This document shows, in pieces, positions 21,790 through 39,999 of a stretch of 64,000 bases of DNA. The stretch covers positions 1,612,001 to 1,676,000 of the forward strand of contig NZ_JAGJEC010000001.1 of NCBI RefSeq assembly GCF_018100785.1, in the 5' to 3' direction. Under the pieces are notes generated by a model. It had not been told where the DNA came from and made no database searches. It saw only the letters and a list, made by a program, of their open reading frames with translations. A program made the position numbers and the translations under genes. The stretch comes from Maribacter sp. MMG018 (GTDB taxonomy: Bacteria; Bacteroidota; Bacteroidia; Flavobacteriales; Flavobacteriaceae). Within the stretch, counting starts at the first letter, position 1. Each line of letters opens with the position of its first letter.

Positions 21790-21814
21790 GCGCAATGGGT
21801 TTGTTTTTTATGGA

Positions 21815-23356: not shown

Positions 23357-26095
23357 TTAGGCCTTGGTCAAAAATTCATCTAGGTTCATTATGGCATTGG
23401 CTACAATGGTCAATGCGGCTAGTTTTGCACTTGGTTTTTCCTTTAATCCTGCAAAATTTTCCCGGTATTCGTTTGTTGTTTCAAACTCTTCCAATGCCTG
23501 ATCGTACAGGTTTTTTAATACGTCCAGTTTTTCGCTATTGATTTCTGAGAATGTCGCTTTTTTATATCCTATCGAGATTGCCTTTTCAATACTCTCCGCC
23601 TCCATCGATTTTGCTAGCGTGTAAGCAGCTTCCATATAAACGGGGTCGTTTAAGGTAACCAATGCCTGTAGCGGTGTATTGGTCACCGTACGACGAATAG
23701 TGCATACCTCTCTGCTACCGGCATCGAATGTGATAAAGGAAGGGTAGGGGCTGGTACGTTTTAGATAAGTGTATATAGCTCGCCTGTATTTATCCTCTCC
23801 TTTGCTTTCTACCCATGACTCGTTACTGTATACCGATTGCCAAACCCCGTCTGGTTGGGGAGGCATAACCCCTGGGCCGTACATTTTTTTACTTAACAAT
23901 CCGGAAATCGCCAATGCTTGGTCCCTGATCTGCTCAGCGCTTAAACGTAGTCTTGGGCCGCGGGCATAAAGTTCGTTATTGGGGTCTTTTTGGTACAGTT
24001 CTGGCGTAGCTACGGAACTTTGCCTGTAGGTGCCGGACATAACAATGTTTTTTATAAGTGCTTTCATACCCCAGGCATGCTCGTTCATGAACCGTAAAGA
24101 AAGCCAGTCCAATAATCTAGGGTGGCTTGGAGGGTCTGATTGTGTTCCCATGTCTTCCAAAGACGAAACAATACCTCTTCCGAATATTTGATGCCATACA
24201 CGATTTACCAACGTACGGGCGGTTAACGGGTTCTCTTTGCTTACCAGCCATTTAGACAGTCCAAGACGATTGGCAGGCCATTCTTCGTTGTAGTCGTTAA
24301 GAATTTTTGGTGTACCTGGTTGCACCGTGTCGCCTTTTGCCAGCCAATTGCCTCGTTCAAAAATTTGAGTGGACCTCGCCATATATCCAGGATTTTCTAC
24401 CATGATCGGAAGTTCTTGGGTATGTGTGTTCAATAGTTCTAAAAAAGATTTGTTTATCTGGGGGTATCCGGCTTCCGTATCTCCCGGAATGTCCTTTAAA
24501 AAAGCAAACCAAGTGATAAAGCTCGTAGAGACCTGCTTTCCGATTCGATCGTTGTCCGATTCAAAATAAAGGTCGGTTGGTTCGTTGATTTTTTTGAAAG
24601 GTATTTTTCTTATGATATTTCCTTTTGTTTTATTGATCTTGAACTGGGCCAAAATTTCACCTTTGCTATTGTTTTTTCTAATAGTCATGGTGGTGCCGTC
24701 CATAAAAGCTTTGTAGTTCATGTACATGGCCGAGGCGCCTTGGGTGTTTACGTTCTTTAATACACAAGAACCATCGTCCCAAAGTGCCAAATATTTGGTG
24801 TCGGCAAGTTCTCCGTTTACAAAATCGGTTGCGTCGTGGGCCAAATATTTTGGCTCCATATAGGATAAAAATTCTTCATACAGTTTTGCTTCTTTTTTTG
24901 AACCGTATTTTTCTACCCAAGAGATAATCTTGTTTTTCTTGTCGTTTTGTTCATCGGTATAAAAACGTATGTTCGGACTTTCATCCGGAGTATCCTCATC
25001 GGCCGTATTGTTGAAATAGGCAAAGCTTTTATAGTATTCTTCAAACTTAAAAGGGTCGTATGGGTGGCTGTGGCATTGAACACATTCCATAGTGGTGCTT
25101 TGCCATACAGAAAAAGTTGTATTTACCCTATCCATCACCGAGGCTACCCTGAACTCTTCATCATCGGTACCGCCTTCATCATTGTTCATGGTGTTTCTGT
25201 GAAAGGCCGTGGCGATCAGTTGATCTACCGAAGGGTCTGGTAGTAGGTCTCCGGCCAATTGTTCGGTCGTGAACTGATCATAGGGCATGTCTTCGTTAAA
25301 GGATTTTATGACCCAATCCCTATAGCGCCACATACTTCTGCCGTTGTCTTTTTCGTACCCTTTGGTATCTGCATAACGGGCCAGATCCAACCACCAACTT
25401 GCCCATTTCTCACCGAACGTATCTTGTGCCAAAAGGTTATCGACTGCCTCTTCGTAGGTGATTTCACCTTTTGTAAATGCTTCGTATAGGTTATTGGTAG
25501 GCGGTAGTCCGGTAATATCAAAAGATAATCTTCGGATCAATGTACTTTTATCTGCAGGGTGGTTTGGGGGAAGGTCGTTGTCTTCTAAACGATTGATTAT
25601 GAATTTATCGATATCGTTCTGTAAAAAATCATTTTTCTCCTTTATGATTAAACTGGCTTCTTCCGTTATTGCGGGTACCGTAACTTCTTTGGGTAAAGAA
25701 TAGGCCCAGTGCTGCCCCCATTTGGCACCTTGGTCTATCCATTTGGTCAGTAAATCTATCTCTTCTTTGGAAAGCTTCGGTTTTTCATAGGGCATTCTTA
25801 ACTCGGGATCCTCCTCGTGAAGTCTCTTTATAAATTCACTTTCGCTTGCATTGCCCGGTATTATTGCGGGTTTGCCCGATTCGGTTGCCGCAAAAGCCTC
25901 TTCTTTAAAAAGTAAACTGAATCCACCGCTTTTTTTTACCCCTCCATGGCAGCTAATACATTTATTGTTTAAGATGGGTTTTATCTGAGTGCTAAAATCT
26001 ATTTGTTCCGATGAGGTATTGCAAGAATAAATTAAACTGATAGCTATCAGGGATATCCAGATTTTAGCATATGATAAGAGTTTCTGTCTATTCAT
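23357..26095 (-). CDS. DUF1549/DUF1553 planctomycete-type cytochrome c lipoprotein
   Basis: 912 residues from the ATG at 26095; a TTG 27 bases upstream would put nine extra residues before the signal peptide. The lipobox is IYSC. Domains in order: planctomycete cytochrome c (Cys46-Ile-Ser-Cys49-His50, then MPYEKPKLS), DUF1549 (about 155-370, including a second heme-like CxxCH in ECVQCHSHPYDPF), a beta-rich insertion, and DUF1553 (about 600-880, TARTLVNRVWHQIFGRG, RLSAEQIRDQALA, TNTPLQALVTLND). The substrate is unknown. It heads the operon with DUF1501, the isomerase-like protein and DUF2231-cytochrome. A pair of 13-bp direct repeats lies upstream. Confidence 0.93.
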   Translation of the reverse strand: MNRQKLLSYAKIWISLIAISLIYSCNTSSEQIDFSTQIKPILNNKCISCHGGVKKSGGFSLLFKEEAFAATESGKPAIIPGNASESEFIKRLHEEDPELRMPYEKPKLSKEEIDLLTKWIDQGAKWGQHWAYSLPKEVTVPAITEEASLIIKEKNDFLQNDIDKFIINRLEDNDLPPNHPADKSTLIRRLSFDITGLPPTNNLYEAFTKGEITYEEAVDNLLAQDTFGEKWASWWLDLARYADTKGYEKDNGRSMWRYRDWVIKSFNEDMPYDQFTTEQLAGDLLPDPSVDQLIATAFHRNTMNNDEGGTDDEEFRVASVMDRVNTTFSVWQSTTMECVQCHSHPYDPFKFEEYYKSFAYFNNTADEDTPDESPNIRFYTDEQNDKKNKIISWVEKYGSKKEAKLYEEFLSYMEPKYLAHDATDFVNGELADTKYLALWDDGSCVLKNVNTQGASAMYMNYKAFMDGTTMTIRKNNSKGEILAQFKINKTKGNIIRKIPFKKINEPTDLYFESDNDRIGKQVSTSFITWFAFLKDIPGDTEAGYPQINKSFLELLNTHTQELPIMVENPGYMARSTQIFERGNWLAKGDTVQPGTPKILNDYNEEWPANRLGLSKWLVSKENPLTARTLVNRVWHQIFGRGIVSSLEDMGTQSDPPSHPRLLDWLSLRFMNEHAWGMKALIKNIVMSGTYRQSSVATPELYQKDPNNELYARGPRLRLSAEQIRDQALAISGLLSKKMYGPGVMPPQPDGVWQSVYSNESWVESKGEDKYRRAIYTYLKRTSPYPSFITFDAGSREVCTIRRTVTNTPLQALVTLNDPVYMEAAYTLAKSMEAESIEKAISIGYKKATFSEINSEKLDVLKNLYDQALEEFETTNEYRENFAGLKEKPSAKLAALTIVANAIMNLDEFLTKA

Positions 26096-26197
26096 TTTTA
26101 TCAGAACTTTTTCAGTTGCCAATAGCGATTATGGTCTATTTAAGTTTGGTTTACGGACTCATTTTTGAGTAACATAATATTAAGGATTAATCTGAAA

Positions 26198-26231
26198 ATA
26201 GATATGGATTAATAAACTATAGATATGGATT
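26198..26231. promoter_or_regulatory. 13-bp direct repeat, 21-bp period: candidate AraC-type operator of the DUF1553 operon
   Basis: ATAGATATGGATT occurs at 26198-26210 and again at 26219-26231. The ATGGAT cores are 21 bp apart, two helical turns, as expected for two HTH units of an AraC-type dimer. The site is about 103-136 bases upstream of the DUF1553 gene. The same ATGGA core with the same 21-bp period recurs upstream of SusC and of the sulfatase operon. Confidence 0.6.
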
Positions 26232-26318
26232 TTATTACACAATGCTATTTTTTAACACCTGTATTTGTTAATCTAATAGAAAAACTTTGTAAATATTCTT
26301 ATTTATGTAATAAGGGCT

Positions 26319-29300
26319 TTAGTTTTTGCTATAAAGAATGGTTTCCGTTCCGTTGGCATCAAGAACCGTTATCTTTTCTTCTTTTCCCGAAAGTCGGATG
26401 TTTTGTGTGGATTGGGACAAGTAACCAGATCCATGATAAAATTCATGGGCACGTGTTTTTCCATTATCAAGAAGCACTTTGCCAAAAACACTTGTTCTGG
26501 GTACTTCCAGTATTTTGCCCATAACATTGTCGTTATTGACTGTATATGATTTTAGGTCGGTATTATTGAATCCGAAAATATGGCTCAAGGCACCATTTGT
26601 AACGATAGAGACGGCTCCTCTGGCATTGCCTTCGGTGAGTAGTCCGCTCTGTATTGGTGGTACCGGTAAAAAATCACCTGTTCCTGTACCTTTTAAATAG
26701 AGTCCTTTTGAGGCATCGTACCTACCTATACCTACTTCGGTCCCATAATCGTTTCCGGATACCACTACGTCTAGATTGCCATCGTTATCAAAATCGGAAA
26801 TTAATATTCCGTAGATAGGAGAAAATTGGGCCCGTGTGGGTAATGGCCTAATTTCAAATGTACCGTTCCCTTGATTTATGAGAATGGAAGAGGCCAGTTG
26901 AAATACTTTGGCGCTATATGCACTGCTTTTTTCTTGTGGTGTTAAAATATCGGAAATGGTGGCACGGGCATAGCTCGCATAGTCCGGAAATTTTTTCTTT
27001 AAAGAAGGAATTTGCTTGATAAGGTCGTCCCTAGAATGAACGGGATATTCTTTACCTTCGTTATAGGTGGTTATGATAGGGTCTATGGTACCATTTTTAT
27101 CATAGTCCAATGCATAGATAGATAGTGGCTCTTTTGAAGTTGCCCTGTATTTGGAGTTTAGTCCGAGATTGCCCACTATATAATCTATGTCGCCATCATT
27201 GTCGAAATCTCCACCATTTATACTGTTCCACCACCCAGAGGTATGGCTGAGCCCGGTGTTTTGCGAGCTACTTACCAATGAGCCATTTTTGTTTTCATAA
27301 AATTCGATGGACATAAACTCACCGACTACGATCAAATCTACATCGCCGTCGTTGTCATAATCTGTCCAAAGGGCATCTGTAACCATACCGGGTTTTCTAA
27401 GCGAGGGAGCCAATTTGTTAGTGACGTCGATAAATTTGCCTCCTTCGTTGATCAATAAGTAGCTTGTGGATGGTAACGGGTATTTTAAAGGGGTTAGCCT
27501 ACCGCCTACAAATAGATCCAAGTCCCCATCTTTATCAAAGTCGGCGGCACGTACACAAGAACTGCTGGTCAACATAGAAGGTAATATGTCTTTTGCCAAT
27601 TTAAAATTACCTTTTCCGTCATTGGTGTAGATACGATCTTGGTAATACTCCGATTTTTCGTAAAATTCATTGCTGCCACTGGCAATATATAAATCTAGGT
27701 CTTGGTCGTTATCGTAATCAAAAAACAGTACCCCCGTGTCTTCTTCATATTTTTCATTTTCATTGGGTGTTAAAGGTCTTCTTTTAAAGGAGCCTAAGTT
27801 TGAGCCAAAAAATAACTGACCACTATGGTTGTAACCACCTCCCATAAAAAAATCTTCATAACCATCACCGTTTATATCGCCGACGGCCAATCCGGGTCCT
27901 TGTTCAGATAGCTTGTGCGGTAACAGATACTCTCTGTTAAAATCATAATAAATGGTTTCTCCGTGAGGTGTTTTTAAGTTTAAAGAAACGGTAACATCTT
28001 TAAAATAGGTCTCTTTTTTATGATGTACCGGTCTGGTAGAACTAATGCCCTCATCTTTTGTGACCACTAAATTTTGGTCCGCCTTAGGGTTAAGTATTTT
28101 TTTGACGTCGCCATCTGGCCATATGATCAATAGACTGTCTATTTTATCGCTAGTTCCCAAGCCAAAATGTAGGGTGTTGTCTACGGCCGATTGGTATCCT
28201 CTTGTAACGGCGAGTCTTGTTAATTGTGTTTTGCCGTCTTGAAACAACTTTATTTGGGTTCCGGTACCAAACCGATTTAGGCTATCACCGACCAAACGGA
28301 TGTTCAGGTAGTGGTTGTCGTCTATACTATCGGATAGATTTTTGTAAATAGAGGCGGGCTGGTTAATATTGTTGATTACCAGATCCAAGTCTCCGTCATT
28401 ATCTAGATCTGCATAGGCGGCACCGTTGGACAGCGATGGGTCGGCTAACCCCCATTCTTTGGTGTTGTCGGTAAACGTTAGGTCTCCGGTGTTCTTGAAA
28501 ATATAATTGGATATTTTAATAGATGGCATTTCTTTAGACTTTTGCTTCAATACATAGTCTAAACTGTCGTGTGTAACCGCGCCATACAAGGTGCTGGTGT
28601 AGTTTATAAAATCAAGGTCGGTTATATCTCTTAAATACCCATTGGTAACAAAAAGGTCTTTTAGGCCATCGTTATCAAAATCTGCAAGTAAAGGGGCCCA
28701 GCTCCAGTCGGTGGCATCTATTTTGGCAAGCTGTCCAATTTCCGAAAACTTGGGTTCGCCGTTACTACTGGGGCCTGTGTTCAGTTGTAGCGTATTTCTC
28801 ATGTACTGTGGCATGTATCCTATTTGAAGAGATCTTTCGAAAAGGTCAAAATTGAGGGGGCCGGACATTTTCTTTTCATGAAAATTATCTTTTGGCCTCA
28901 TATCCATGGTCACAAGGTCGTATAATCCGTCATTGTTAAAATCGGCAATATCGTTTCCCATACTAAAATGACTTACATGGTTTAAGTACGATTTGGCCAT
29001 TTCTTTAAAGGTGCCGTCTTGTTGGTTAATATAAACGTAATCGTTGGCAACAAAATCGTTGGTGACAAAAATATCGTCCCAACCGTCGTTGTTAAGGTCT
29101 GCGATACTTAGGCCGAGTCCAAGGCCGTCATAATGAATGCCGGCCGAATCTGTAACATCGGTAAATTTTATGCCCATGCCCTTGTCTTCATCATTTCTGT
29201 AAAGCCGGTCATTGGCGGGGCCACTACCATCGGAAATTAGGGGCCTGATGTTATTGGGGTCCCTAATGGCATTCGTATGGTTCAATAAGTACATGTCAAG

Positions 29301-29879
29301 GTCACCGTCTTTATCGTAATCAAAGAAAGCGGCTTGGGTAGAATAGCTGTCATCGGCGAGGCCATATTCTTCGGCCTCTTCTTTAAAAGTTAGGTCACCC
29401 TGGTTTATATATAAGAGGTTTTTACGTTTTTCTTTTTTAAAATTGCCAGATCTACAAACATAGATGTCAAGTAAACCATCGTGATTAATGTCTACCATGG
29501 TCACACCTGTAGACCAACCGTTGTGTTTGTTGTTTAGGTTGGCGCTTATATCCTTGAATTTTAGGTCTCCAAGGTTTACGTAAAGGGCGTCGTGTACCAT
29601 GTTGCCCGTAAAAAAAATATCGGGTAGGCCATCGTTGTTTAAATCACCCGTGGCTACTCCAGCGCCGTTGTATACGTAAAAATAATCTACCATGTTAAAC
29701 TGTTCGTTTTCAGTGATCTCGTTGTTGAAAACGACATTGCTAGTGTCTGGATGCACTAGGCTAAATCGTGATTTGATTACTTCTGTGCTCTTAAGTGAGG
29801 AGTTGTTGGTATTACAGGCACTTAAAAGAATTAGCAGGGTGTAAAAGGTAATTTGCTTTAAGGCACTTATTTTCTTCAT
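26319..29879 (-). CDS. FG-GAP/VCBS-repeat lipoprotein with ASPIC/UnbV domain
   Basis: 1186 residues, signal peptide with lipobox LLSAC. It is a large beta-propeller-type surface or periplasmic protein: many calcium-binding FG-GAP loops of the form DxNNDGxxD or DYDxDGDxD are spread over both halves (for example DLNNDGLPDIFF, DINHDGLLDIYV, DYDKDGDLDMYL, DFDKDGDLDLFV). In the middle, about 550-630, is an ASPIC/UnbV domain (TRGYQSAVDNTLHFGLG, LLIIWPDGD). Such proteins resemble vertebrate CRTAC1 and are often encoded beside SusC/SusD pairs in Bacteroidetes. Glycan or protein binding is inferred. It follows SusD after a strong terminator, so it is probably transcribed separately or by readthrough. 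Confidence 0.93.
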   Translation of the reverse strand: MKKISALKQITFYTLLILLSACNTNNSSLKSTEVIKSRFSLVHPDTSNVVFNNEITENEQFNMVDYFYVYNGAGVATGDLNNDGLPDIFFTGNMVHDALYVNLGDLKFKDISANLNNKHNGWSTGVTMVDINHDGLLDIYVCRSGNFKKEKRKNLLYINQGDLTFKEEAEEYGLADDSYSTQAAFFDYDKDGDLDMYLLNHTNAIRDPNNIRPLISDGSGPANDRLYRNDEDKGMGIKFTDVTDSAGIHYDGLGLGLSIADLNNDGWDDIFVTNDFVANDYVYINQQDGTFKEMAKSYLNHVSHFSMGNDIADFNNDGLYDLVTMDMRPKDNFHEKKMSGPLNFDLFERSLQIGYMPQYMRNTLQLNTGPSSNGEPKFSEIGQLAKIDATDWSWAPLLADFDNDGLKDLFVTNGYLRDITDLDFINYTSTLYGAVTHDSLDYVLKQKSKEMPSIKISNYIFKNTGDLTFTDNTKEWGLADPSLSNGAAYADLDNDGDLDLVINNINQPASIYKNLSDSIDDNHYLNIRLVGDSLNRFGTGTQIKLFQDGKTQLTRLAVTRGYQSAVDNTLHFGLGTSDKIDSLLIIWPDGDVKKILNPKADQNLVVTKDEGISSTRPVHHKKETYFKDVTVSLNLKTPHGETIYYDFNREYLLPHKLSEQGPGLAVGDINGDGYEDFFMGGGYNHSGQLFFGSNLGSFKRRPLTPNENEKYEEDTGVLFFDYDNDQDLDLYIASGSNEFYEKSEYYQDRIYTNDGKGNFKLAKDILPSMLTSSSCVRAADFDKDGDLDLFVGGRLTPLKYPLPSTSYLLINEGGKFIDVTNKLAPSLRKPGMVTDALWTDYDNDGDVDLIVVGEFMSIEFYENKNGSLVSSSQNTGLSHTSGWWNSINGGDFDNDGDIDYIVGNLGLNSKYRATSKEPLSIYALDYDKNGTIDPIITTYNEGKEYPVHSRDDLIKQIPSLKKKFPDYASYARATISDILTPQEKSSAYSAKVFQLASSILINQGNGTFEIRPLPTRAQFSPIYGILISDFDNDGNLDVVVSGNDYGTEVGIGRYDASKGLYLKGTGTGDFLPVPPIQSGLLTEGNARGAVSIVTNGALSHIFGFNNTDLKSYTVNNDNVMGKILEVPRTSVFGKVLLDNGKTRAHEFYHGSGYLSQSTQNIRLSGKEEKITVLDANGTETILYSKN

Positions 29880-29924
29880 GGTCTATAGCCTTTTTTGGAT
29901 ATGGTCGGTAATTTAAGGAAAAAT

Positions 29925-29952
29925 AAAAACCTGTCTGAGAAGACAGGTTTTT
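29925..29952 (-). terminator. Terminator of the SusC-SusD transcript
   Basis: Perfect 12-base stem AAAAACCTGTCT / AGACAGGTTTTT with a 4-base loop, followed on the minus strand by T-rich sequence. It lies between the SusD stop and the FG-GAP gene. By its A/T flanks it could also work on the plus strand. Confidence 0.85.
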
Positions 29953-29982
29953 AAATTAAAATTAATAAACTAACTCAACACA

Positions 29983-31572
29983 TTACTCATACTCTGGATT
30001 TTGGGTAACGTTCGGATTTCCTAAAACCTCGTTCAATGGAAGTGGTAATACGTAGTCTTTTGGAGACAATGTTCTGTCAACACCATAAGTGTCTATGAAA
30101 TCTTGGATATATTCACCAAGGTAGTCAGGAGAACCACCAAACGTACTTTTTCTTTTTAATTCGGGATAAACCTCGCATTCCATCGCAAATTCCATTACTC
30201 TTTCGTTTACAATGGCATCTCTTAACTGCTCTTTGTTCAATCCGGAAAGAGGGTCAAGACCAGCTCTTCTTCTTACTTCGTTGATACCGTAATAAGGATC
30301 GCCGGTGCCACTTTCGTTAGCTGCCTCTGAATGTCCCAGAAGTACATCTGCCAAGCGAAGGTAGACTATGTTCTTTTCGGTCAAATTCGAATTTGATATA
30401 CCCATTTCGGTGTATTTAGCCGACCATCCGTTCGAGAATATCAACTCATCTGGGTTGTTAGGGTCAGCATCAGCAGCAACCATTCCACCAAAACGACTAA
30501 GGTTATAAGGTGCTTCGGCGCTCCACTTAACGACGGGTCTCTCTCCTTCAGAATTCGGGCCTACCCTGGTAGTTGGATATTCTTCGATAAAGGTACCTGC
30601 GATTCTTTTGTCGGTTGGGTCATATTTTTCGCGGAATGCCTGAGTAGAGTTCAGCCAGTGCCAGCCCACACCTCCTAGATCGTTAGGTAAATCACCAGGA
30701 ATAAAATGCTGGTGGTAATTTTGGTTTTCTCCAGAATTTGCGGAAGCGGATACTTGTGCTTCAAAAATTCTAGGTCCGGAATTCTCGTTCTCTACAGAAA
30801 AAGTATCGGCGAAATCCTCGAACAATACCATACCGCTTTCACTAATGAACGTTTGTGCGGTAGTATAGGCCTCGTCCCATTTTTCGTCTTGTAGGTACGC
30901 TTTTACCAATAACGCTTCAGCTGCCCATTTTGTGGCTCTTCCTACATCTCCAGAATCATAGGATTCCGGTAAAATGTCTGCGGCAATGGATAGGTCCGAC
31001 TGTATCAGGTCAAGAGCCAGTCTTTTTCCGTTTTCATTTGAAGGAAGGTCTTGGTCACTTGCTGTTTTTGTTGTTGTTACCGGTATATTATCAAAATAGC
31101 GAACAAGGTTGTAGTAGTAAAATGCCCTTAAAAATTGAGCTTCTGCCTTTACCCTGTCTATTAATGCGCTGTTAGGAACCCCCTCTGCCTTAAGGTCATC
31201 GGCTTTTTGGATAATAGCGTTGGCCCTGTTTATGTTCTCGTACGAGATTCTCCAATAGGTGGAAATATACTCGTCATCTGGAGAAACATTACCGTTTTGG
31301 TAGTTAAGAGGACCTTTTTCCCATCCTACTTGGTATCCTGCCAAGCATTCGAATACAAATCTATTGTAATAATGGTTAAACCAATCTTGACCATATCCAA
31401 TACCATCATAGATAGCATTTACGCCTAGTTCTAACTGCTCGGCGGTGCCAAAGAAATTATCCTCGGTCGTAAAATCCGGATTTTCATCCAAGTCGGTACA
31501 GCCTACTATACTTATCGCAATAAATAGGAGGGGGATGATCCTCCATGAAATTGCTTTTGTGTACTTCTTCAT
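29983..31572 (-). CDS. SusD/RagB-family glycan-binding lipoprotein
   Basis: 529 residues, lipobox IVGC (Cys25), outer-membrane lipoprotein facing outward. The sequence has the SusD features: TEDNFFGTAEQLELGVNAIYDG after the anchor, the TPR-like helical part (VKAEAQFLRAFYYYNLVRYFDNIPV), and the C-terminal EVRRRAGLDPL, AIVNERVMEFAMECEVYPELKR and YVLPLPLNEVLGNP. It caps the SusC barrel and binds the polymer or oligosaccharide imported. Loop residues that would tell the ligand are not recognisable. It lies 17 bases after susC in one operon. Confidence 0.97.
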   Translation of the reverse strand: MKKYTKAISWRIIPLLFIAISIVGCTDLDENPDFTTEDNFFGTAEQLELGVNAIYDGIGYGQDWFNHYYNRFVFECLAGYQVGWEKGPLNYQNGNVSPDDEYISTYWRISYENINRANAIIQKADDLKAEGVPNSALIDRVKAEAQFLRAFYYYNLVRYFDNIPVTTTKTASDQDLPSNENGKRLALDLIQSDLSIAADILPESYDSGDVGRATKWAAEALLVKAYLQDEKWDEAYTTAQTFISESGMVLFEDFADTFSVENENSGPRIFEAQVSASANSGENQNYHQHFIPGDLPNDLGGVGWHWLNSTQAFREKYDPTDKRIAGTFIEEYPTTRVGPNSEGERPVVKWSAEAPYNLSRFGGMVAADADPNNPDELIFSNGWSAKYTEMGISNSNLTEKNIVYLRLADVLLGHSEAANESGTGDPYYGINEVRRRAGLDPLSGLNKEQLRDAIVNERVMEFAMECEVYPELKRKSTFGGSPDYLGEYIQDFIDTYGVDRTLSPKDYVLPLPLNEVLGNPNVTQNPEYE

Positions 31573-31589
31573 AATTTTATTTTTTTTAA

Positions 31590-34500
31590 TTAAAATTCTA
31601 AGTTAATTCCGATGGTCAAAGTTCTTGATCTTGGGTATGCATCGTAGTCATCGCCCCTGTTCAAGTTGTCTTGGCCTCTATTGTTTACTTCTGGATCAAA
31701 ACCAGAGTAATCTGTAATAGTGAGCAAGTTTTGGCCACTTACGTAGATTCTCGCTTTTGTAATCAAATCGTTGAAGTGGGGAAGGGTGTATCCTAAGGAT
31801 ACATTTTGCAACCTGATGAAAGAACCGTCTTCTATAAAGTAGTCAGAATCTCTGTAAGAGTTTGCAAAATCACGATTACCATCTATAACAGGTCTCGAGG
31901 CGCTGGTATTGGTAGGTGTCCAAGAATCGGTAAGAATAGTACTGATCTGATTTATCTTCTGAACACCGTCACCTAATTCAGATGCCTGTAGGTTTCTAAC
32001 ATCAAATCCTTGAGAACCTCTGAAAAATAATCCCAGATCAAAATTCTTGTAGGTGAAGGTAGAATTTAACCCCCATGTAAAATCTGGGTTCGGATCACCG
32101 ATAATGACATAATCGTCGGGCGTAATTTCGCCGTCACCGTTGACATCTCTATATTGAGGATAGCCCGGTTTGTCTCCCGATCTTGATGGATTGTTCGCTA
32201 TTTCTTCTTCGGACTGAAAAATGCCGATGTAATCATAACCTCTCCATACACCGATAGGGTTTCCTGCTTCTACCCAGCTACCTTCTACACCAAGGTGGCC
32301 ACTGGTAGTTTCTGAGAAAAATGGCGTGCTATCGCCCAAATCGGTAAGTTCGTTTCTTAAGATGGATATGTTACCGGCAACATTCCATTTAAAATCTTCG
32401 TTGTCTATTACATAACCGTCCAGGCCAACCTCGAATCCTTTATTTTCCAATGATCCGGAATTTTTAAGAATGGATTCAAAACCAAGACTGCTAGGTATGG
32501 ATACAAAGAGCAATAGGTCTTCGGTTTTGTTGCTGAAATAATCCAACGTTAAGTTTAGTCGACTGTTAAAGAAAGAGGCATCTAGCCCAATGTTCCTCAT
32601 TGTAGTCGATTCCCATTTTAGATCAGGGTTGCTAAGTCTGGCATCCGCAAGACCCAGTACCAAACCTCCGTTAAGTACGTAGTTGAACTCGCTCAGGTTA
32701 GCCAAAGAATTGTAGACCGGAATTTCGGAGTTACCCGTTAATCCCCAGCTACCTCTTAATTTAAGATTGTTGATCACGTCAGATACACCGCCTTCAAAGA
32801 AACTTTCGTTAGATATGTTCCAACCAAGGGCAACAGATGGGAAGTTGGCCCATTTGTTCTTGCTTCCAAATCTGGAAGAACCATCACGTCTAAAGGTTAC
32901 GGTAGCCAAATATCTACTGTCATAATTGTAATTTACCCTTCCTAGTAAAGATTCCAATAACCATTCTCTTCTTTCTGAATAGGGGGTTAATATGTCTGGA
33001 CCTCCTTGTAGTGTGGCTTGATCCACAGAGGCAGCGGTAATACCACGGGTAGTACTGCTAAAATACTTATTTACCTCTTTTTGGTACGTGTAACCTACTA
33101 CGGCATCTACAAAGTGTTTGTCGTTAAATGTTTTTGTGTAGGTTAATAGATTTTCGTTCAGAATGTTGGCCGAATTTCTGTTTGCCAAAGTCAGTTCTCC
33201 TGCATTGTCTCTTCCTATTCTTGTGTTTACGGATGGGAAAAAACTAGTTCTGTTAATATTAAGGATATCTGCACCTATACTGGTTTTAGCCTTTAGGTTT
33301 TCGGTTAGGGCAAATGTAAACGTAGTATTTCCGAGTACCCTGTTGGTAATATCCTGGTCGGTGGCATATTTTAATTCCTGTAAGGGGTTTATATTGAATC
33401 TACCATCGTAGGAAGCTAGGGCGTATGTACCGTCTTCGTTATAAACGGGTACGGTAGGATCTAAACCTAAAGCGGTGATGATGATACCTCCAGGACCTCC
33501 TTGATCCGTTGGTGCATTGTTAGAAACCGTTCTGTTGTACGACCAGCTAGAACTTACATTTAAAAAGTTGTCAAATGCCGAATTATCTACATTTAAACGG
33601 ATACCATATCTTTGAAAGTCGGTCATTTTAATGATACCTGCGTTATCGTGATAGTTTCCGGTAACGGCATATTTATGGTCTTCGTTTCCACCAGAAAATG
33701 TTAGTTGGTGGTTTTGAATAGAACCGACCCTTGTTACTTCATCTAACCAGTTTGTTCCTTTTCCAAATGCATCTATTTGTGCTTGAGTGTAAATTGGAGC
33801 ACCTCCTTGACTTGTTTCCAAAGTGTTAAGGTAAGTGGCAAACTCAGAACCGTTCAATACATCTATTGGGTTAGAAATTGTTTGTGTGGAATAAGAGCCT
33901 TCGTAACTGATCTTGGCTTTTCCGGCCTTTCCTCTTTTGGTGGTGATCAAAACAACACCGTTAGAACCCCTTGACCCATAAATGGAAGTCGCGGAAGCGT
34001 CTTTTAATACTTCTATAGATTGAATGTCGTTAGGGTTGATGGATGCTAGAATGTTAGTGGCCTGTCTTGAGCCACCTGCACCATAGGCACTATTGTCCGG
34101 ATAAATAGGAAAACCATCTATAACATATAAAGGTTCACTACCACTGTTAATGGAATTGGAACCTCGAATACGTACAGACACTCCACCACCTGGAGCGGCA
34201 GAGGTTTGGGTTACTTGTACACCGGGAGCCCTGGCTTGGATCGCTTGATCTACCGATGTTACCGGTAACTCTTTAAAAGCATCTCCGTCTATTGAAGATA
34301 CAGAACCTGTGAGGTCGCTCTTTTTAACGGTTCCGTACCCAACAATGACAACCTCGTCCAAGGCTTCACTTTGTGGGTCCAGTGTTACGTTAATGGTTGT
34401 ACGGCCATCAATGCTTACTTGTTTAGGGGCAAAGCCCAGAGATGAAAATTCAATGACCTTAACATCGGCTGGGACGGTAAGTTCGTATTTTCCATCAAAA

Positions 34501-34679
34501 TCGGTGATGACACCTGTGGTTCCGGCAATTACGTTTGCGCCTGGTAAGGGTGTTCCGGTTTCCCCGTCCGTTACCGTACCACTAATGGTTGTTTGGGCAT
34601 TTAATGCTAGGCCGCTCCATAATAATGAAACTCCCCACAATAAAAGTTTGAGTTGACTTGTGAATAGAGATAACTTCAT
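31590..34679 (-). CDS. SusC/RagA-type TonB-dependent transporter
   Basis: 1029 residues, outer-membrane importer. After a signal peptide comes the carboxypeptidase-regulatory-like domain (ISGTVTDGETGTPLPGANV, about 32-105), then the plug (EVVIVGYGTVKKSDLTGSV, the SusC signature, to about residue 240) and a 22-strand barrel ending in the aromatic residue of NLEF. With SusD it imports glycan fragments using TonB energy. No extra N-terminal signalling domain is seen, so regulation is by the AraC-type protein encoded upstream rather than by an anti-sigma system. A pair of ATGGAC sites 21 bp apart lies 100-126 bases before the start. Confidence 0.97.
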   Translation of the reverse strand: MKLSLFTSQLKLLLWGVSLLWSGLALNAQTTISGTVTDGETGTPLPGANVIAGTTGVITDFDGKYELTVPADVKVIEFSSLGFAPKQVSIDGRTTINVTLDPQSEALDEVVIVGYGTVKKSDLTGSVSSIDGDAFKELPVTSVDQAIQARAPGVQVTQTSAAPGGGVSVRIRGSNSINSGSEPLYVIDGFPIYPDNSAYGAGGSRQATNILASINPNDIQSIEVLKDASATSIYGSRGSNGVVLITTKRGKAGKAKISYEGSYSTQTISNPIDVLNGSEFATYLNTLETSQGGAPIYTQAQIDAFGKGTNWLDEVTRVGSIQNHQLTFSGGNEDHKYAVTGNYHDNAGIIKMTDFQRYGIRLNVDNSAFDNFLNVSSSWSYNRTVSNNAPTDQGGPGGIIITALGLDPTVPVYNEDGTYALASYDGRFNINPLQELKYATDQDITNRVLGNTTFTFALTENLKAKTSIGADILNINRTSFFPSVNTRIGRDNAGELTLANRNSANILNENLLTYTKTFNDKHFVDAVVGYTYQKEVNKYFSSTTRGITAASVDQATLQGGPDILTPYSERREWLLESLLGRVNYNYDSRYLATVTFRRDGSSRFGSKNKWANFPSVALGWNISNESFFEGGVSDVINNLKLRGSWGLTGNSEIPVYNSLANLSEFNYVLNGGLVLGLADARLSNPDLKWESTTMRNIGLDASFFNSRLNLTLDYFSNKTEDLLLFVSIPSSLGFESILKNSGSLENKGFEVGLDGYVIDNEDFKWNVAGNISILRNELTDLGDSTPFFSETTSGHLGVEGSWVEAGNPIGVWRGYDYIGIFQSEEEIANNPSRSGDKPGYPQYRDVNGDGEITPDDYVIIGDPNPDFTWGLNSTFTYKNFDLGLFFRGSQGFDVRNLQASELGDGVQKINQISTILTDSWTPTNTSASRPVIDGNRDFANSYRDSDYFIEDGSFIRLQNVSLGYTLPHFNDLITKARIYVSGQNLLTITDYSGFDPEVNNRGQDNLNRGDDYDAYPRSRTLTIGINLEF

Positions 34680-34734
34680 ACGTTTAAAATTGGTTTTATT
34701 TTATTTAGGTAAGAATTGTCTTGTTATAGGAAGA

Positions 34735-34744
34735 CAAAATCCTA
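34735..34744 (-). promoter_or_regulatory. Degenerate -7 box for susC-susD
   Basis: The minus strand reads TAGGATTTTG, like TAnnTTTG but with a longer spacer. It lies about 35 bases downstream of the proximal ATGGAC site; the sulfatase operon shows a similar degenerate box (TAGTGTTTG, 36035-36043) at the same distance from its own site. Confidence 0.3.
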
Positions 34745-34778
34745 CCAAACAATATTAAGAAGATATTAAGATTTAAAA

Positions 34779-34805
34779 ATGGACGATTATTGCAAAAACA
34801 TGGAC
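34779..34805. promoter_or_regulatory. ATGGAC direct repeat, 21-bp period: candidate AraC-type operator of susC-susD
   Basis: ATGGAC at 34779-34784 and 34800-34805, 21 bp apart on the strand opposite to susC. This matches the pairs found before the DUF1553 operon and the sulfatase operon. The position relative to the putative -7 box (about -50 to -80) suits an activator. Confidence 0.6.
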
Positions 34806-34817
34806 TTTTTGCAATAA
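34787..34817. repeat. Perfect 12-bp inverted repeat overlapping the operator
   Basis: TTATTGCAAAAA (34787-34798) and TTTTTGCAATAA (34806-34817) are perfect inverted arms around a 7-base centre that includes the second ATGGAC. No T-run follows in the direction of susC, so it is not its terminator; an operator for a symmetric dimer is more likely. Confidence 0.7.
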
Positions 34818-34950
34818 AAAAAATAATTTGTCATAATAATGGGTGTTTTTGAGGGTTAAATTAAATTTTAAGTCCTTAAAAATATTAAATCGATAATGGT
34901 GGTGTAGGAAGTAGTTTGTTAAAAAAATGTTAAATAAATATGAATAACTT

Positions 34951-35835
34951 TTATTCTTGTTGTTCTTTTCTGTAATCTTTTGGTGAAATTCCGAAGTATT
35001 TTTTAAAGGTTCTAGAAAAGTATAAAGGATCTTGAATACCTACTTTGTAGCTTATTTCCTTTATGCTTAAATCTGTATATTTAAGATATTCACAGGCTTT
35101 TTGAATCTTTTTTAGATTGAAAAAATGAATCAATGAGTAACCTGTTCTTTTCTTGAACAAATTAAATAGATAAGAAGGTGAGCAGTTAAATTGTTTGGCT
35201 ATTTCATCGGATTTATAGGTCTTGTCCAAATTGGCCGTTAAAAAATCGATGACCGAATTTATCATATTTGTATGCGAGGTGGTTTCCGAAGCAAATTCTT
35301 TGGTGGTATATATAAAGGAGCTGATGAACTGTAATCCTAAAATATTGGCGAACTCCAATTTTGGAACGGTGTATTCACTTTTGTACATCAAAAATATTTC
35401 ATTGAACATTTTAATTCGATTGTTCTCAAAAGCGATATTGCCATCCGTACTTCTAAATTCTAGATAACGCTTGTAAAGGGCATCTGAAGAGTGTCCTGAA
35501 AAATGCAACCAGTAAATGCTCCACGGTTCGTTTTCATCCGATTTATATTCGTGGGGGGTGTTTTTGGGTATAATATGAAAAGAATTCGGAAGTACTTCTA
35601 TGTTGGTGTCGTCGATCTTCATTTTTCCCTTGCCCTCTACACAGTACATAAAAATATACTCCTTTGATCCCTTTTTTCTGGTTCTATAATGGTGGCGTGC
35701 ATTCGGGTAAAAACCAATATCGGTAATATAGAAGGGTTTGCATATGCTGTTTTCTTTGAGCTCCTTTTTTATGGAGTCTGGTAAGACAGTCATTTTTTGA
35801 CCTAAAAATCCCTCTTTTAGTTTGGAAGTGTCCAC
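34951..35835 (-). CDS. AraC-family transcriptional regulator
   Basis: 294 residues. The N-terminal part (about 20-150) is a cupin-like sugar-sensing domain (EYIFMYCVEGKGKMKI, PNSFHIIPKNTPHEY, WLHFSGH). The C-terminal part has the two AraC helix-turn-helix units: SDEIAKQFNCSPSYLFNLFKKRTGYS and SIKEISYKVGIQDPLYFSRTFKKYFGISPKDYR. It probably binds a sugar released from the polymer and activates the locus. The start is GTG at 35835, because the residues before the first ATG (LKEGFLGQKMTVLP) match the usual N-terminus of such regulators. It lies between the minus-strand susC-susD and the plus-strand sulfatase operon. Confidence 0.94.
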   Translation of the reverse strand: MDTSKLKEGFLGQKMTVLPDSIKKELKENSICKPFYITDIGFYPNARHHYRTRKKGSKEYIFMYCVEGKGKMKIDDTNIEVLPNSFHIIPKNTPHEYKSDENEPWSIYWLHFSGHSSDALYKRYLEFRSTDGNIAFENNRIKMFNEIFLMYKSEYTVPKLEFANILGLQFISSFIYTTKEFASETTSHTNMINSVIDFLTANLDKTYKSDEIAKQFNCSPSYLFNLFKKRTGYSLIHFFNLKKIQKACEYLKYTDLSIKEISYKVGIQDPLYFSRTFKKYFGISPKDYRKEQQE

Positions 35836-36269
35836 TTGTCGGTACTGGTTTTATGGTTAAGTAATAGAATTGGTCAACATGGGTGTTATTGGTGTTTTTT
35901 TTCTTTCCCAAAAAATGAAAATAGAATGATAATTCCCTTTGGGGTCTAAAATATTAAATAAAAATAGGAATGTCCATATTTATCTATATAAATTCCATAT
36001 TGTAAACTGTTATATTGAATAAATTCGCAAATAGTAGTGTTTGATATTAATATTATTGTTGAAATGATGGTGTGTTTTTAAGGCTATGTTAAGGCGTGGT
36101 GTTTTTGAGTTTTGTTCCGATAAATTAAAAAATCCATGTTTGATTAAGTTTGTCTTGTTTCATTACAAGCGAAATGGCGGTTCTTAAAACATAATGATGG
36201 TATGAATTTAAGTTGTAGAAAATTAAAATATGCAACGCGGTATAGTTGCTTAAAAATAAATAGGTAAAG
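35836..36269. other. Divergent intergenic region between regulator and sulfatase operon
   Basis: 434 AT-rich bases with no credible gene. It contains the TCCAT pair at 35972-35998, a degenerate -7 box TAGTGTTTG at 36035-36043 on the plus strand, and one more ATCCAT at 36132-36137 within AATCCATGTTTGA; its complement shares AAACATGGA and TTTTT with the susC operator. Confidence 0.6.
35972..35998. promoter_or_regulatory. TCCAT direct repeat, 21-bp period: candidate AraC-type operator of the sulfatase operon
   Basis: GTCCATATT at 35972 and TTCCATATT at 35993; the cores are 21 bp apart. Read on the minus strand they are ATGGAC and ATGGAA, so the orientation relative to the sulfatase operon is the same as at susC and at the DUF1553 gene. 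It could also serve autoregulation of the divergent AraC-type gene. Confidence 0.55.
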
Positions 36270-37859
36270 ATGGTCAATAGAAAATTATTTGGTGTTTTTT
36301 TGGTGTGCTTCCTTATTAATTTTACAAGTTGTAAGGATGAGGTATCACCTGTCGAAAACAAAAAACCGAATATTGTTTTTATACTGGCGGATGACCTAGG
36401 GGCGCATGACCTAAGTTATGCCGGTAGTACCTATTATGAAACCCCTAATATAGATGCCATTGCAAAAGAAGGGGTGAGTTTTGTACAAGGGTACGCCGCA
36501 GCACAAGTTTGTAGCCCGTCGCGGGCAAGTATTATGCTCGGGCAGTCTACGGCCCGTCATGGAATTACAGATTGGATAGGGGCCTCTACGGGTAAAAAAT
36601 GGGGAGACGAACGTAATACAAAAGTACTGCCTCCCGAATATGAAAGGGCCTTAAAAGAAGAAGATATTACCATTGCCGAGGCTTTAAAAGCAGAAGGGTA
36701 TAAAACCTTTTTTGCCGGAAAATGGCATTTGGGCGATGAGCCATACTCACCTGAAAACAATGGTTTTGACATTAATAAAGGAGGCTGGGAAGTCGGTAGC
36801 CCTAAAGGAGGGTATTATGCTCCGTGGGACAATCCGAAGTTGGATTATAAGCACGAGGGCGAAAGCTTAACAAAGCGGTTGGGGCAAGAAACTGCCGATT
36901 TTATTTCGAACAACAAAGACCGGCCCTTTTTTGCTTTCTTATCGTTCTATGCCGTACATGGGCCTATAGAAACTACTGAGGACAAATGGAGAAAATATCG
37001 CAATAAGGCCGAGGAGATGGGCATTAAAAACACTGGGTATGAAATGGAGCGTATTTTGCCTATTCGTACCGTTCAGGACAACCCTATATATGCCGGATTA
37101 ATAGAAACTATGGACGAAGCCGTAGGCATTGTGATGCAGCGACTAAAAGAGCTGGGGTTAGATGATAATACCATTGTTGTTTTTACTTCTGATAATGGTG
37201 GTGTGGCAAGTGGCGATGCTTTTTCTACAACTAATTACCCTTTAAGGGGCGGAAAAGGCTATCAATGGGAAGGTGGCATCAGGGAGCCGTATCTGATCAA
37301 GGCGCCCATGTTCAAAAACACGCCCAAGGTGGTGGATTATCCCGTATCGGGAATAGACTTTTATCCGACTCTTTTAGAATTTGCAGGGGTTGATATACCT
37401 AAAAACCATCTCTTGGAAGGGGTGAGTCTAGTGCCTTTGTTAAAAGGGGAGACCCTTACCGAAAGACCTTTGTTTTGGCATTACCCACATTATGGCAATC
37501 AAGGAGGGGAACCTGTTAGTATTATCAGAAAAGGTGATTGGAAACTCATTCATTATTATGAAGATGGCCGTGATGAGCTATATAATTTAAAACAAGATTT
37601 AGACGAAAAAGAAAATGTGTTGGGCAAGCATCCTCAGTTGGCACAAGAACTTAAAAAGGAACTCACCGATTATTTGACGCAAACGGGGGCTAAAAGACCT
37701 GAAGTCAATGTAGATTATGATGGTATAAAGGCTGCCGAGCTTCAGAAGAAAAGAAAAACTGAAATGCTTCAGAATTTAGAAAAGCAACGAAAAGAATTTC
37801 TAAAAAGTGATTTTGAACCAAATAAGAACTGGTTCGATAGCAAAACAACCAAAGATTAA
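36270..37859 (+). CDS. Type I sulfatase lipoprotein
   Basis: 529 residues; signal peptide with lipobox FTSC, so probably membrane-anchored in the periplasm or on the surface. It has the sulfatase signature with the formylglycine site Cys81-Ser-Pro-Ser-Arg, metal-binding Asp pair in FILADDLGAHDLSY, GKWHLGD, and VVFTSDNGG with the later Asp-Asn metal ligands. It removes sulfate esters from a glycan; whether from polymer or oligosaccharide, and from which position, cannot be told. A charged C-terminal helix (AAELQKKRKTEML) follows the domain. A maturation enzyme (FGE or anSME) is not in the window. It is the first gene of a six-gene operon. Confidence 0.96.
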   Translation: MVNRKLFGVFLVCFLINFTSCKDEVSPVENKKPNIVFILADDLGAHDLSYAGSTYYETPNIDAIAKEGVSFVQGYAAAQVCSPSRASIMLGQSTARHGITDWIGASTGKKWGDERNTKVLPPEYERALKEEDITIAEALKAEGYKTFFAGKWHLGDEPYSPENNGFDINKGGWEVGSPKGGYYAPWDNPKLDYKHEGESLTKRLGQETADFISNNKDRPFFAFLSFYAVHGPIETTEDKWRKYRNKAEEMGIKNTGYEMERILPIRTVQDNPIYAGLIETMDEAVGIVMQRLKELGLDDNTIVVFTSDNGGVASGDAFSTTNYPLRGGKGYQWEGGIREPYLIKAPMFKNTPKVVDYPVSGIDFYPTLLEFAGVDIPKNHLLEGVSLVPLLKGETLTERPLFWHYPHYGNQGGEPVSIIRKGDWKLIHYYEDGRDELYNLKQDLDEKENVLGKHPQLAQELKKELTDYLTQTGAKRPEVNVDYDGIKAAELQKKRKTEMLQNLEKQRKEFLKSDFEPNKNWFDSKTTKD

Positions 37860-37882: not shown

Positions 37883-39283
37883 ATGAAAAACCCACAATAC
37901 AATTTTGCTTACTTACTTTTTCTGGCGTTGGTCTCTGCCATGGGTGGATTTCTGTTCGGTTATGACTGGGTGGTAATAGGAGGGGTAAAACCTTTTTATG
38001 AGCTCTATTTTAATATAGCCGATATACCCACGTTACAAGGTTGGGCCATGAGCAGTGCCTTGGTGGGGTGTATTTTTGGAGCGATACTTTCAGGACTCTT
38101 GACCGATAAATGGGGGCGAAAAAACAGTCTTATATTGGCGGCGGCACTGTTTTCCTTATCTGCTTTTGGAACAGGATATGCCGATGATTTCACCCTTTTT
38201 GTTGTGTATAGGGTCTTAGGCGGTCTGGGTATAGGGTTGGCTTCTACATTATCGCCTATGTACATTGCAGAAGTGGCACCCGCAGAGTATAGGGGGCGAT
38301 TTGTAGCTATAAATCAATTAACGATCGTGTTGGGTATTTTGGTGGCGCAAATTGCCAACTGGGGTATTGCCGAGGCCATACCTGCCAATTTTAACGATAC
38401 GGATATACTGAACTCTTGGAACGGTCAAACCGGTTGGCGGTATATGTTCTGGGTAGAACTTATACCTGCATTACTTTTCTTTTTTCTAATGTTCGTGGTG
38501 CCCAAAAGTCCAAGATTTCTTGCCAAGGCCGGTAAAGAAGAGGATGCCAAACAGGTGTTGTTTAAGATCGGTGGTATGGGGTATGCCGAACAAGAGTTCG
38601 ATAACATGAGGTCGACCCTTAACGATGATGAGGGCAAAAAGATTTCCATTGCTGAATTAAAGGGAAAAAAGGTGTTTCCTATTCTTGTTATAGGTGTTGT
38701 GTTGGCGGTATTTCAACAATGGTGCGGTATCAATATCATTTTTAATTATGCGGAAGAAATATTTTCCGCTGCCGGTTATAGTGTTGGTGATATGCTCTTT
38801 AATATAGTGATCACGGGCAGTGTTAATCTTATTTTCACTTTCATGGCCATGCGAACGGTAGATAGTTGGGGCCGTAGAAAATTAATGCTCTTTGGGGCGG
38901 CAGGGCTCGCCATTATTTATGCATTGTTAGGGGGGGCTTATTTCTTTGAGTTCAGTGGTTGGCCGGTTCTAGTTTTAGTAATTACGGCAATTGCGATTTA
39001 TGCCATGTCTTTGGCGCCGATAACCTGGGTGGTGCTCTCCGAGATTTTTCCGAATAGATTAAGGGGATTGGCTATGTCTATAGCAACATTTTCATTGTGG
39101 ATAGCCTCATTTATCTTGGTATTTACTTTCCCTATCATGAACAGTGAATTGGGGTCGTACGGTACCTTTTGGGCGTATAGTATTATTTGTGTGGCCGGTT
39201 TTGTTTTCGTTAAAAAAAGATTGCCGGAAACAAAGGGCAAGAGTTTGGAGGAAATTGAAATAGAGCTTACGAAAGAAAAATGA
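37883..39283 (+). CDS. MFS sugar:H+ symporter (sugar porter family)
   Basis: An inner-membrane transporter of 466 residues with 12 hydrophobic segments. The sugar-porter marks are GGFLFGYDWVVIGG near the N-terminus, LTDKWGRKNS between helices 2 and 3, VDSWGRRKLML in the second half and PETKGKSLEEIE at the end. The family (XylE, GalP) imports monosaccharides with protons. It should bring the monosaccharide released by the two GH2 enzymes into the cytoplasm; the sugar is unknown. It starts 23 bases after the sulfatase gene and its stop overlaps the next start (ATGA). Confidence 0.95.
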   Translation: MKNPQYNFAYLLFLALVSAMGGFLFGYDWVVIGGVKPFYELYFNIADIPTLQGWAMSSALVGCIFGAILSGLLTDKWGRKNSLILAAALFSLSAFGTGYADDFTLFVVYRVLGGLGIGLASTLSPMYIAEVAPAEYRGRFVAINQLTIVLGILVAQIANWGIAEAIPANFNDTDILNSWNGQTGWRYMFWVELIPALLFFFLMFVVPKSPRFLAKAGKEEDAKQVLFKIGGMGYAEQEFDNMRSTLNDDEGKKISIAELKGKKVFPILVIGVVLAVFQQWCGINIIFNYAEEIFSAAGYSVGDMLFNIVITGSVNLIFTFMAMRTVDSWGRRKLMLFGAAGLAIIYALLGGAYFFEFSGWPVLVLVITAIAIYAMSLAPITWVVLSEIFPNRLRGLAMSIATFSLWIASFILVFTFPIMNSELGSYGTFWAYSIICVAGFVFVKKRLPETKGKSLEEIEIELTKEK

Positions 39284-39999
39284 AAATAAGCCTTAAGGTC
39301 ATAGTATTCATTGCTTTTACCATACAAAGTACCTATGCTCAAACCGATATGGGGAAGATGGATTATTTACGTGATGTGACATCGGAATTGCGTAAAGAGT
39401 GGCCGAACAATAAAACCATCAATCTGGTTTTTCACGGGCATTCCGTGCCTTCGGGATATTTTAAAACCCCCAACGTAAACACATTGGAGGCGTATCCGTA
39501 CGTAACATTAAAAAATATAAAGCGGGTATACACCTCTGCTGTGGTAAATGTTATTACGACCTCTATTGGTGGGGAGCAGTCGGAGCAAGGCGAAAAAAGG
39601 TTCACGGAAGAAGTATTGGTGCACCGGCCCGATGTACTGTTCATAGACTATGCCTTAAACGATCGCAGCATTGGGCTCGAAAGGGCAAAAATAGCATGGG
39701 AAAAAATGATCCTTCAAGCAAAGGCATACGGTACAAAGGTGATTCTAATGACGCCCACACCCGATGTAAAGGAAGATATTCTGTCCCCCAAATCGGAACT
39801 GTCCAGGCACAGTCGACAAATAAGGGACTTGGCAAAAAAATATGAAATAGGTCTGGTGGATAGTTATCGGCTGTTTCAGAAAATAGCCGAAAAAGAGGAT
39901 ATAAAAATCTACATGGCCCAAAGTAACCATATAAATGAAAAAGGGCATAGGGTTGTTGCAGATGCCATATTCGATTTTTTCAGCGAAGATTATAAATAA
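39280..39999 (+). CDS. Secreted SGNH/GDSL-type hydrolase
   Basis: 239 residues with a signal peptide (KISLKVIVFIAFTIQSTYAQ). The SGNH blocks can be recognised, with changes: block I reads FHGHSVPSGY (GHS instead of GDS, Ser retained), block II has the Gly in IGGEQSEQG, block III is DYALNDR (Asn), and the catalytic His is in SNHINEKGH. The family removes acetyl or other acyl groups; here deacetylation of the glycan is the natural guess. Translation is probably coupled to the transporter gene through the 4-base overlap. Confidence 0.87.
   Translation: MKISLKVIVFIAFTIQSTYAQTDMGKMDYLRDVTSELRKEWPNNKTINLVFHGHSVPSGYFKTPNVNTLEAYPYVTLKNIKRVYTSAVVNVITTSIGGEQSEQGEKRFTEEVLVHRPDVLFIDYALNDRSIGLERAKIAWEKMILQAKAYGTKVILMTPTPDVKEDILSPKSELSRHSRQIRDLAKKYEIGLVDSYRLFQKIAEKEDIKIYMAQSNHINEKGHRVVADAIFDFFSEDYK

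Follow-up and report, generated by a model that had tools for sequence, protein, structure and literature searches.

Paired sites at a 21-bp period predict an AraC-type regulon over glycan import, desulfation and a PSCyt/PSD1/DUF1501 module in Maribacter sp. MMG018

Organization of the locus

We analyzed a stretch of 64,000 nucleotides from Maribacter sp. MMG018 (contig NZ_JAGJEC010000001.1, positions 1,612,001 to 1,676,000 of the forward strand), referred to here in full as the window. It encodes an AraC-type regulator, and the promoter regions of three operons around the regulator gene each carry a pair of short sites repeated at 21 bp. These pairs are the predicted operators of the regulator. 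Using window positions, the regulator and the pairs are as follows, with scores from the leave-one-out scan described below:

34951..35835, minus strand: regulator of 294 aa, with an AraC_binding/cupin N-terminal domain and a C-terminal domain of two helix-turn-helix (HTH) motifs (Pfam, translation); internal ATG at codon 15
26198..26231, minus strand: predicted operator pair 1, upstream of the PSD1 (DUF1553) operon; TCCAT cores at 26204-26208 and 26225-26229; 25.3 bits
34779..34805, minus strand: predicted operator pair 2, upstream of susC; ATGGAC at 34779 and 34800; cores at 34779-34783 and 34800-34804; 24.5 bits
35972..35998, plus strand: predicted operator pair 3, upstream of the sulfatase operon in the divergent region between regulator and sulfatase genes; cores at 35973-35977 and 35994-35998; 14.1 bits

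The other genes of the locus were assigned using Pfam, in a scan that covered 27 of the 56 open reading frames (ORFs) of the window, and NCBIfam where indicated:

31590..34679, minus strand: susC, SusC/RagA TonB-dependent transporter (also NCBIfam)
29983..31572, minus strand: susD
26319..29879, minus strand: FG-GAP/ASPIC-UnbV repeat protein of 1186 aa, third gene after susCD
23357..26122, minus strand: PSCyt1-PSCyt2-PSD1 (DUF1549/DUF1553) protein, first gene of the cytochrome module; TTG at 26122, in-frame ATG at 26095
21815..23332, minus strand: DUF1501 protein
20905..21795, minus strand: xylose-isomerase-like TIM barrel protein
19498..20892, minus strand: DUF2231-PSCyt1-LRR protein
36270..37859, plus strand: sulfatase (also NCBIfam)
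37883..39283, plus strand: MFS sugar porter (also NCBIfam)
39280..39999, plus strand: GDSL esterase/lipase family protein
40015..42843, plus strand: GH2 protein; best curated relative the exo-beta-1,4-galactosidase BT4151, below the cut-off
42884..46216, plus strand: DUF5107-TPR protein
46219..49017, plus strand: second GH2-type protein

Left of the regulator the layout is susC, susD, the FG-GAP/ASPIC gene and then the PSCyt-PSD1 module; the sulfatase operon lies to the right. With a susC-susD pair next to genes for glycan enzymes, as recognized by Pfam and NCBIfam, the locus is a Sus-type polysaccharide utilization locus (PUL). The PSCyt, PSD1 and DUF1501 families are described in Pfam as of unknown function or by name only. 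A galactokinase-like GHMP kinase gene (18326-19435) adjoins the end of the cytochrome module; this kinase and the sub-cut-off likeness of the first GH2 protein (40015-42843) to BT4151 hint at a galactose-containing substrate.

Three paired sites at a 21-bp period

The original prediction had placed paired ATGGA sites 21 bp apart at 26198/26219, 34779/34800 and 35972/35993, read on the strand opposite to the gene in all three cases, with the regulator gene in the middle of the locus. All of these coordinates and the spacing hold: the gene-sense strand reads TCCAT in each pair, and the regulator is encoded between the pairs. Pair 1 has ATAGATATGGATT at both of its positions, and pair 3 consists of GTCCAT at 35972 and TTCCAT at 35993. 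On both strands of the window, over spacings of 8-44 bp, direct ATGGA pairs occur three times at 21 bp and at most twice at any other spacing.

We also counted strict pairs in the whole genome (4.13 Mb, 17 contigs). At 21 bp there were 34, versus 18 for a reversed-pattern control, and 31 of the 34 fall inside ORFs of at least 100 aa, these being mechanical ORFs called without annotation. The remaining three are the PSD1, susC and sulfatase sites. Equal abundance of 21-bp pairs at unrelated promoters, which would have told against the original prediction, was not seen for strict pairs: the genome holds no other intergenic one. Because there are 38 matches to HTH_18 in the genome and intergenic strict pairs around one of them, the signal is specific to the regulator locus. 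Extending the pattern to TCCAT-N16-TCCAT-N20-22-TANNNTT left only the PSD1 and susC sites as exact matches in the genome, with a single exact match for the reversed control; the sulfatase site is one base off. The sulfatase site is the weakest and least certain of the three, since it scores 14.1 bits versus 25.3 for PSD1 and 24.5 for susC.

Conservation around regulator homologs

Homologs of the regulator were found at E <= 1e-55 in 34 of 397 genomes of the family, with up to 6 candidates scored in each. Among named genomes, the closest one found was Maribacter thermophilus HT7-2, whose regulator is 99% identical. The set used for comparison comprised 39 loci: about 20 kb around each of 36 regulator genes, including those of the window and of genome G002, together with loci L032, L033 and L036. 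Locus L031, from the same genome as L087, was left out of all counts.

Gene order is highly variable among the 39 loci. The regulator stands beside susCD-FG-GAP in L088, L091 and L100, directly beside the PSD1 module in L074, L092 and L095, and elsewhere next to MFS/TPR/GH2/sulfatase operons. In L088, L091 and L100, as in the window, the FG-GAP/ASPIC-UnbV gene is third after susCD.

The spacing was conserved in intergenic DNA. Over the 103 kb of such DNA in these loci, the 21-bp spacing was represented by 20 strict pairs, and each other spacing from 8 to 59 by no more than 2; 6 of the 20 are from the window locus and the near-identical L087. The coding DNA of the same loci had no spacing peak, with 4 such pairs at 21 bp and between 0 and 9 at the other spacings. 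The proximal copy is frequently TCTAT; when TCCAT was paired with TC[C/T]AT in the 38 loci without L087, the 21-bp spacing accounted for 41 intergenic pairs and no other spacing for more than 4.

A matrix was built from 16 of the 20 strict sites (columns -8 to +29; L032 and L087 left out of training) and scanned over the loci, each locus and any near-identical sibling being withheld in turn. This yielded 43 sites scoring 14 bits or more, spread over 31 of the 39 loci. L086 is this window and L087 has a 99% identical regulator, so the sites of these two do not count as independent. When the intergenic DNA was dinucleotide-shuffled 50 times, the mean was 0.48 and the maximum 3. Thirty-one of the 43 sites lie within 400 bp of the regulator gene and 12 at least 1.5 kb away. 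The expected conservation beside orthologs of the regulator was therefore borne out by the matrix: pairs near its homologs precede susC, PSD1 and MFS/TPR/GH2-type operons. Specifically, pair 1 has counterparts upstream of PSD1 in L074, L091 and L092 and an imperfect one in L095, and pair 2 has counterparts upstream of susC in L088, L091 and L100.

Within the sulfatase-type operons the box can be placed differently. In L100 (12518-15949), it is MFS that has a site upstream (14269, between this gene and the sulfatase), and no site scoring 14 bits or more precedes the sulfatase.

Promoter geometry

Predicted -7 elements follow each pair in the window:

26175..26182, minus strand: TAATATTA, PSD1 promoter; 4 of 6 TAnnTTTG positions, 21 bp after the proximal core
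34750..34757, minus strand: TAATATTG, susC promoter; 5 of 6 positions, offset 21
36020..36027, plus strand: TAAATTCG, sulfatase promoter; 5 of 6 positions, offset 21

The sequence TAnnTTTG is the flavobacterial sigma-A -7 consensus, located at -12 to -5 (PMC9723704). In 40 sites (L087 and one out-of-register match in L088 being left out), a box matching at least 5 of the 6 positions was found at an offset of 21 in 23 and of 22 in 10, while each of the other offsets between 0 and 59 had 4 or fewer; the box lies outside the matrix columns. On this basis the proximal TC[C/T]AT falls at about -38 to -34, followed by a conserved run of T at -33 to -31. The predicted placement of the pair is class II activator geometry. 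In E. coli, AraC activates in class II fashion at araI1-I2, where the proximal half-site adjoins the upstream promoter element.

Together with the spacing counts and the shuffles, this offset tells against a chance origin of the pairs in AT-rich DNA. ATGGA has only 5 bases, and 31 further pairs lie inside ORFs of the genome. Nevertheless, every intergenic strict pair of the genome is in one locus, and chance has next to no prospect of accounting for the sites; it was rejected on the spacing counts in the window and the loci and on the shuffles.

The same architecture might instead serve repression, with a dimer at the -33 region blocking RNA polymerase until a sugar releases it; a proximal half-site abutting that region would also suit a repressor. 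We regard repression as very unlikely. In 33 of 40 sites the pair stands just upstream of -33 and is followed on its own strand by a -7 box at a constant distance, as in the activator arrangement of araI1-I2, and most AraC-family proteins are activators. Moreover, in Zobellia galactanivorans, deletion of CgrA (ZGAL_3159), another AraC-family regulator of a PUL, resulted in poorer growth on the substrate (PMC5698469).

Transcription is predicted to start near 26170 (PSD1), 34745 (susC) and 36032 (sulfatase), some 34 bp past the proximal core. The predicted leaders differ in length, at about 240 nt for the sulfatase (36028-36270) versus about 66 for susC and 50-75 for PSD1.

The PSD1 site and the presence of the regulator

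We next compared PSD1 upstream regions in genomes with and without the regulator, "with" meaning a homolog listed at E <= 1e-55. Of 49 PSD1 matches in 47 genomes, the 30 orthologs with loci were scored. Of the 9 genomes with the regulator, 6 had a PSD1 upstream site scoring 14 bits or more; of the 21 without it, none did (Fisher p = 1.4e-4). This test overlaps training: the PSD1 sites of G000, G245, G237 and G300 (4 of the 6 positives) are in the matrix, as are the susC and MFS sites of G361. With their own loci withheld, the scores were 25.3 bits for G000, 25.9 for G245, 33.0 for G237, 19.0 for G300 and 17.6 for G419. In G361, PSD1 is on contig C11 and the regulator on C17, yet the PSD1 site scores 15.3 bits, in this case with the unwithheld matrix. 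Among the 21 genomes without the regulator the best score was 9.7 bits; G027, which is of the same genus and has a 73% identical PSD1, has no site (5.3 bits).

Likeness of the regulator and its half-site to AraC

The regulator matches PF12833 (76.1 bits; cut-off 33.6) and PF00165 (63.3 bits; cut-off 26.6) in its HTH domain and PF02311 (48.8 bits; cut-off 21.1) in its cupin domain. It thus has the N-terminal ligand-binding domain of the AraC/XylS family and, as a further family trait, direct-repeat predicted operators near the promoter, with their 21-bp period and fixed -7 offset. The best curated family was NCBIfam AraC PRK10572, at 124.1 bits against an equivalog cut-off of 208. The DNA-binding domain aligns with those of MarA and AraC; in the second HTH, the regulator has vgiqdplyfsrtfkk where AraC has the similar vgfddqlyfsrvfkk.

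The aligned sites indicate a longer half-site than ATGGA, of about 17 bp. The distal consensus, from -11 to +5, is TAGTAATATTGTCCATA, and the looser proximal copy ends in TC[C/T]ATTTTT. The E. coli araI1 half-site is TAGCATTTTTATCCATA, copies of which repeat at 21 bp in an I1-I1 construct (PMC2893085). Without gaps, the distal consensus and araI1 are identical at 13 of 17 positions; single half-sites match araI1 at a mean of 11 of 17 positions (distal) and 9.3 (proximal). Identity of at least 13 was found in 8 of 40 distal half-sites versus 28 of 2105 TCCAT-bearing 17-mers of the same loci, sites included. Common descent of the operator with araI1 is only a suggestion that these sequences raise, and shared AT richness may explain part of the likeness.

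Overall, the system resembles E. coli AraC at araI1-I2 of araBAD in its direct repeat of 21-bp period, its half-site (13/17) and its cupin and two-HTH regulator. It differs in that the regulator is below the equivalog cut-off and is encoded in a PUL rather than among arabinose genes, and in the Bacteroidota sigma-A promoter with TAnnTTTG.

Proposed regulon

Taken together, these data indicate that the AraC-type activator encoded between the three pairs very probably controls all three promoters through them. In this mechanism, a dimer of the regulator would bind the two half-sites, TAGTAATATTGTCCATA and the looser copy, head to tail at 21 bp, a period that would place both monomers on one face of the DNA. 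Because the proximal half-site ends beside the -33 region, with TAnnTTTG 21-22 bp past its core, the bound dimer would be in direct contact with sigma/RNA polymerase, like AraC at araI1-I2. The cupin domain would sense an intracellular sugar as inducer, and this sugar would switch on together susCD import, the sulfatase/MFS/GDSL/GH2/DUF5107 operon and the PSCyt/PSD1/DUF1501 module. We infer binding by this protein, activation, a sugar as inducer and one transcript per operon.

The original prediction had proposed such a regulon over import, desulfation/hydrolysis and the cytochrome module; spacing, conservation and co-occurrence support it, with binding predicted from the sequence. It is refined here in that the half-site is longer and araI1-like and the pair is fixed against the -7 box. 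What began as a guess from raw sequence becomes a specific predicted regulon, in which the operators and transcription starts of three operons are placed and oriented. The PSCyt/PSD1/DUF1501 module would gain a regulatory link to the import and desulfation of one glycan, and the matrix could be used to map soluble AraC-type regulons of marine flavobacteria.

Several observations weigh against this proposal. In eight of the 39 loci (L033, L036, L079, L081, L082, L084, L093 and L099) no site reaches 14 bits; three of them have near-sites, at 22 bp (L082, L093) or 20 bp (L084), and the other five have nothing convincing, including L099, where the regulator is 51% identical and next to sus genes. 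G468, G036 and G323 have a regulator homolog and PSD1 but no PSD1 site. The 14-bit threshold was fixed after the ranking of sites was known, and the strict pairs used for training came from the very loci over which the matrix was scanned. The site of the sulfatase operon, 272 bp from the ATG, is weak, and its counterpart in L087 scores below 14 bits. Finally, other PULs are preceded by TCCAT sites of this type at the same 21-bp period, in two cases close to a hybrid two-component gene, and the identity of the regulator therefore cannot be read from the box by itself.

The near-sites of L093 (near 10750) and L084 (near 9490) are upstream of MFS operons.

Hybrid two-component systems and similar sites elsewhere

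The last of these points favors a different reading, in which the operators are real but bound by a hybrid two-component system (HTCS) encoded elsewhere, the adjacent AraC protein having another role. The pairs at the head of other PULs are of the TCCATGTTTTTGAA type, and the susC site of the window, TCCATGTTTTTGCAATAATCGTCCAT, resembles them. In addition, the genome has HTH_18 proteins that by length are of hybrid-system size, in frames of 1381, 1415 and 1510 aa. We consider this reading unlikely. The sites follow the regulator across genera, mostly within 400 bp of its gene; PSD1 upstream sites were absent where the regulator was not found; and the genome has no intergenic strict pair beyond the three. 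Among the window ORFs scanned with Pfam there is no hybrid system, only one lone receiver protein (49391-49822), and the regulator itself has the HTH and cupin domains alone, lacking the histidine kinase and receiver of an HTCS.

The 21-bp geometry is already known for AraC-type domains in the phylum, since Ravcheev et al. (2013) predicted direct repeats averaging 21 bp for Bacteroides HTCS (PMC3878776). The system described here shares with these an AraC-type output domain, 21-bp repeats and control of SusCD and glycan enzymes. Bacteroides HTCS are membrane hybrid histidine kinases, whereas the present regulator is a soluble cupin-HTH protein, and for the boxes the likeness lies in repeat spacing. 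New here are the regulon, a probable soluble regulator for it and a half-site anchored to the promoter. Among the open-access PMC articles listed as matches, none was found to describe the motif, which does not prove its absence.

CgrA of the carrageenan PUL provides another parallel, as an AraC-family regulator in a flavobacterial PUL with sulfatases; no operator is given in the passages considered from PMC5698469 on AraC, motif, promoter and direct repeat, and the likeness is one of family and setting. Carrageenan also induces a susCD pair elsewhere in the Zobellia genome (PMC5698469).

More tentatively, and with the odds against it, the sites might reflect a promoter code common to AraC-type activators of Flavobacteriia, soluble cupin proteins and HTCS alike: TCCAT half-sites at 21 bp ending at -33, with TAnnTTTG 21-22 bp on. 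An araI-like half-site would then have been kept across phyla, and PSCyt/PSD1/DUF1501 would have been wired to glycan import by reuse of an old operator.

The pattern TCCAT-N16-TCCAT-N20-22-TANNNTT matched in 199 of the 397 family genomes. These matches were not used as evidence for the regulon: those listed were by eye mostly coding-like, 12 of them having been checked.

A second class of sites, close to TCCATGTTTTTGAATnAAATGTCCAT and with the same 21-bp period, was observed in ten loci (L143-L152). Their distance to the -7 box is partly a matter of selection, as the search pattern demanded TANNNTT 20-22 bp on. A hybrid two-component gene is present in L145 and L152 (2 of the 10 loci, 20 kb having been fetched for each), and L149 has a sensor fragment at its edge; these sites are possibly HTCS operators. 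They often form divergent pairs, with a gene of about 1020 aa (putative susC, judging from its size) on one side and a second operon on the other, as in L146 (10002 and 10154) and L147 (9875 and 10088). Among selected genes, Pfam identified GH92 in L146, L150 and L151, GH115 and MIOX in L146, and glucuronate isomerase in L148. The second operon of L146 contains MIOX together with a sodium:solute symporter.

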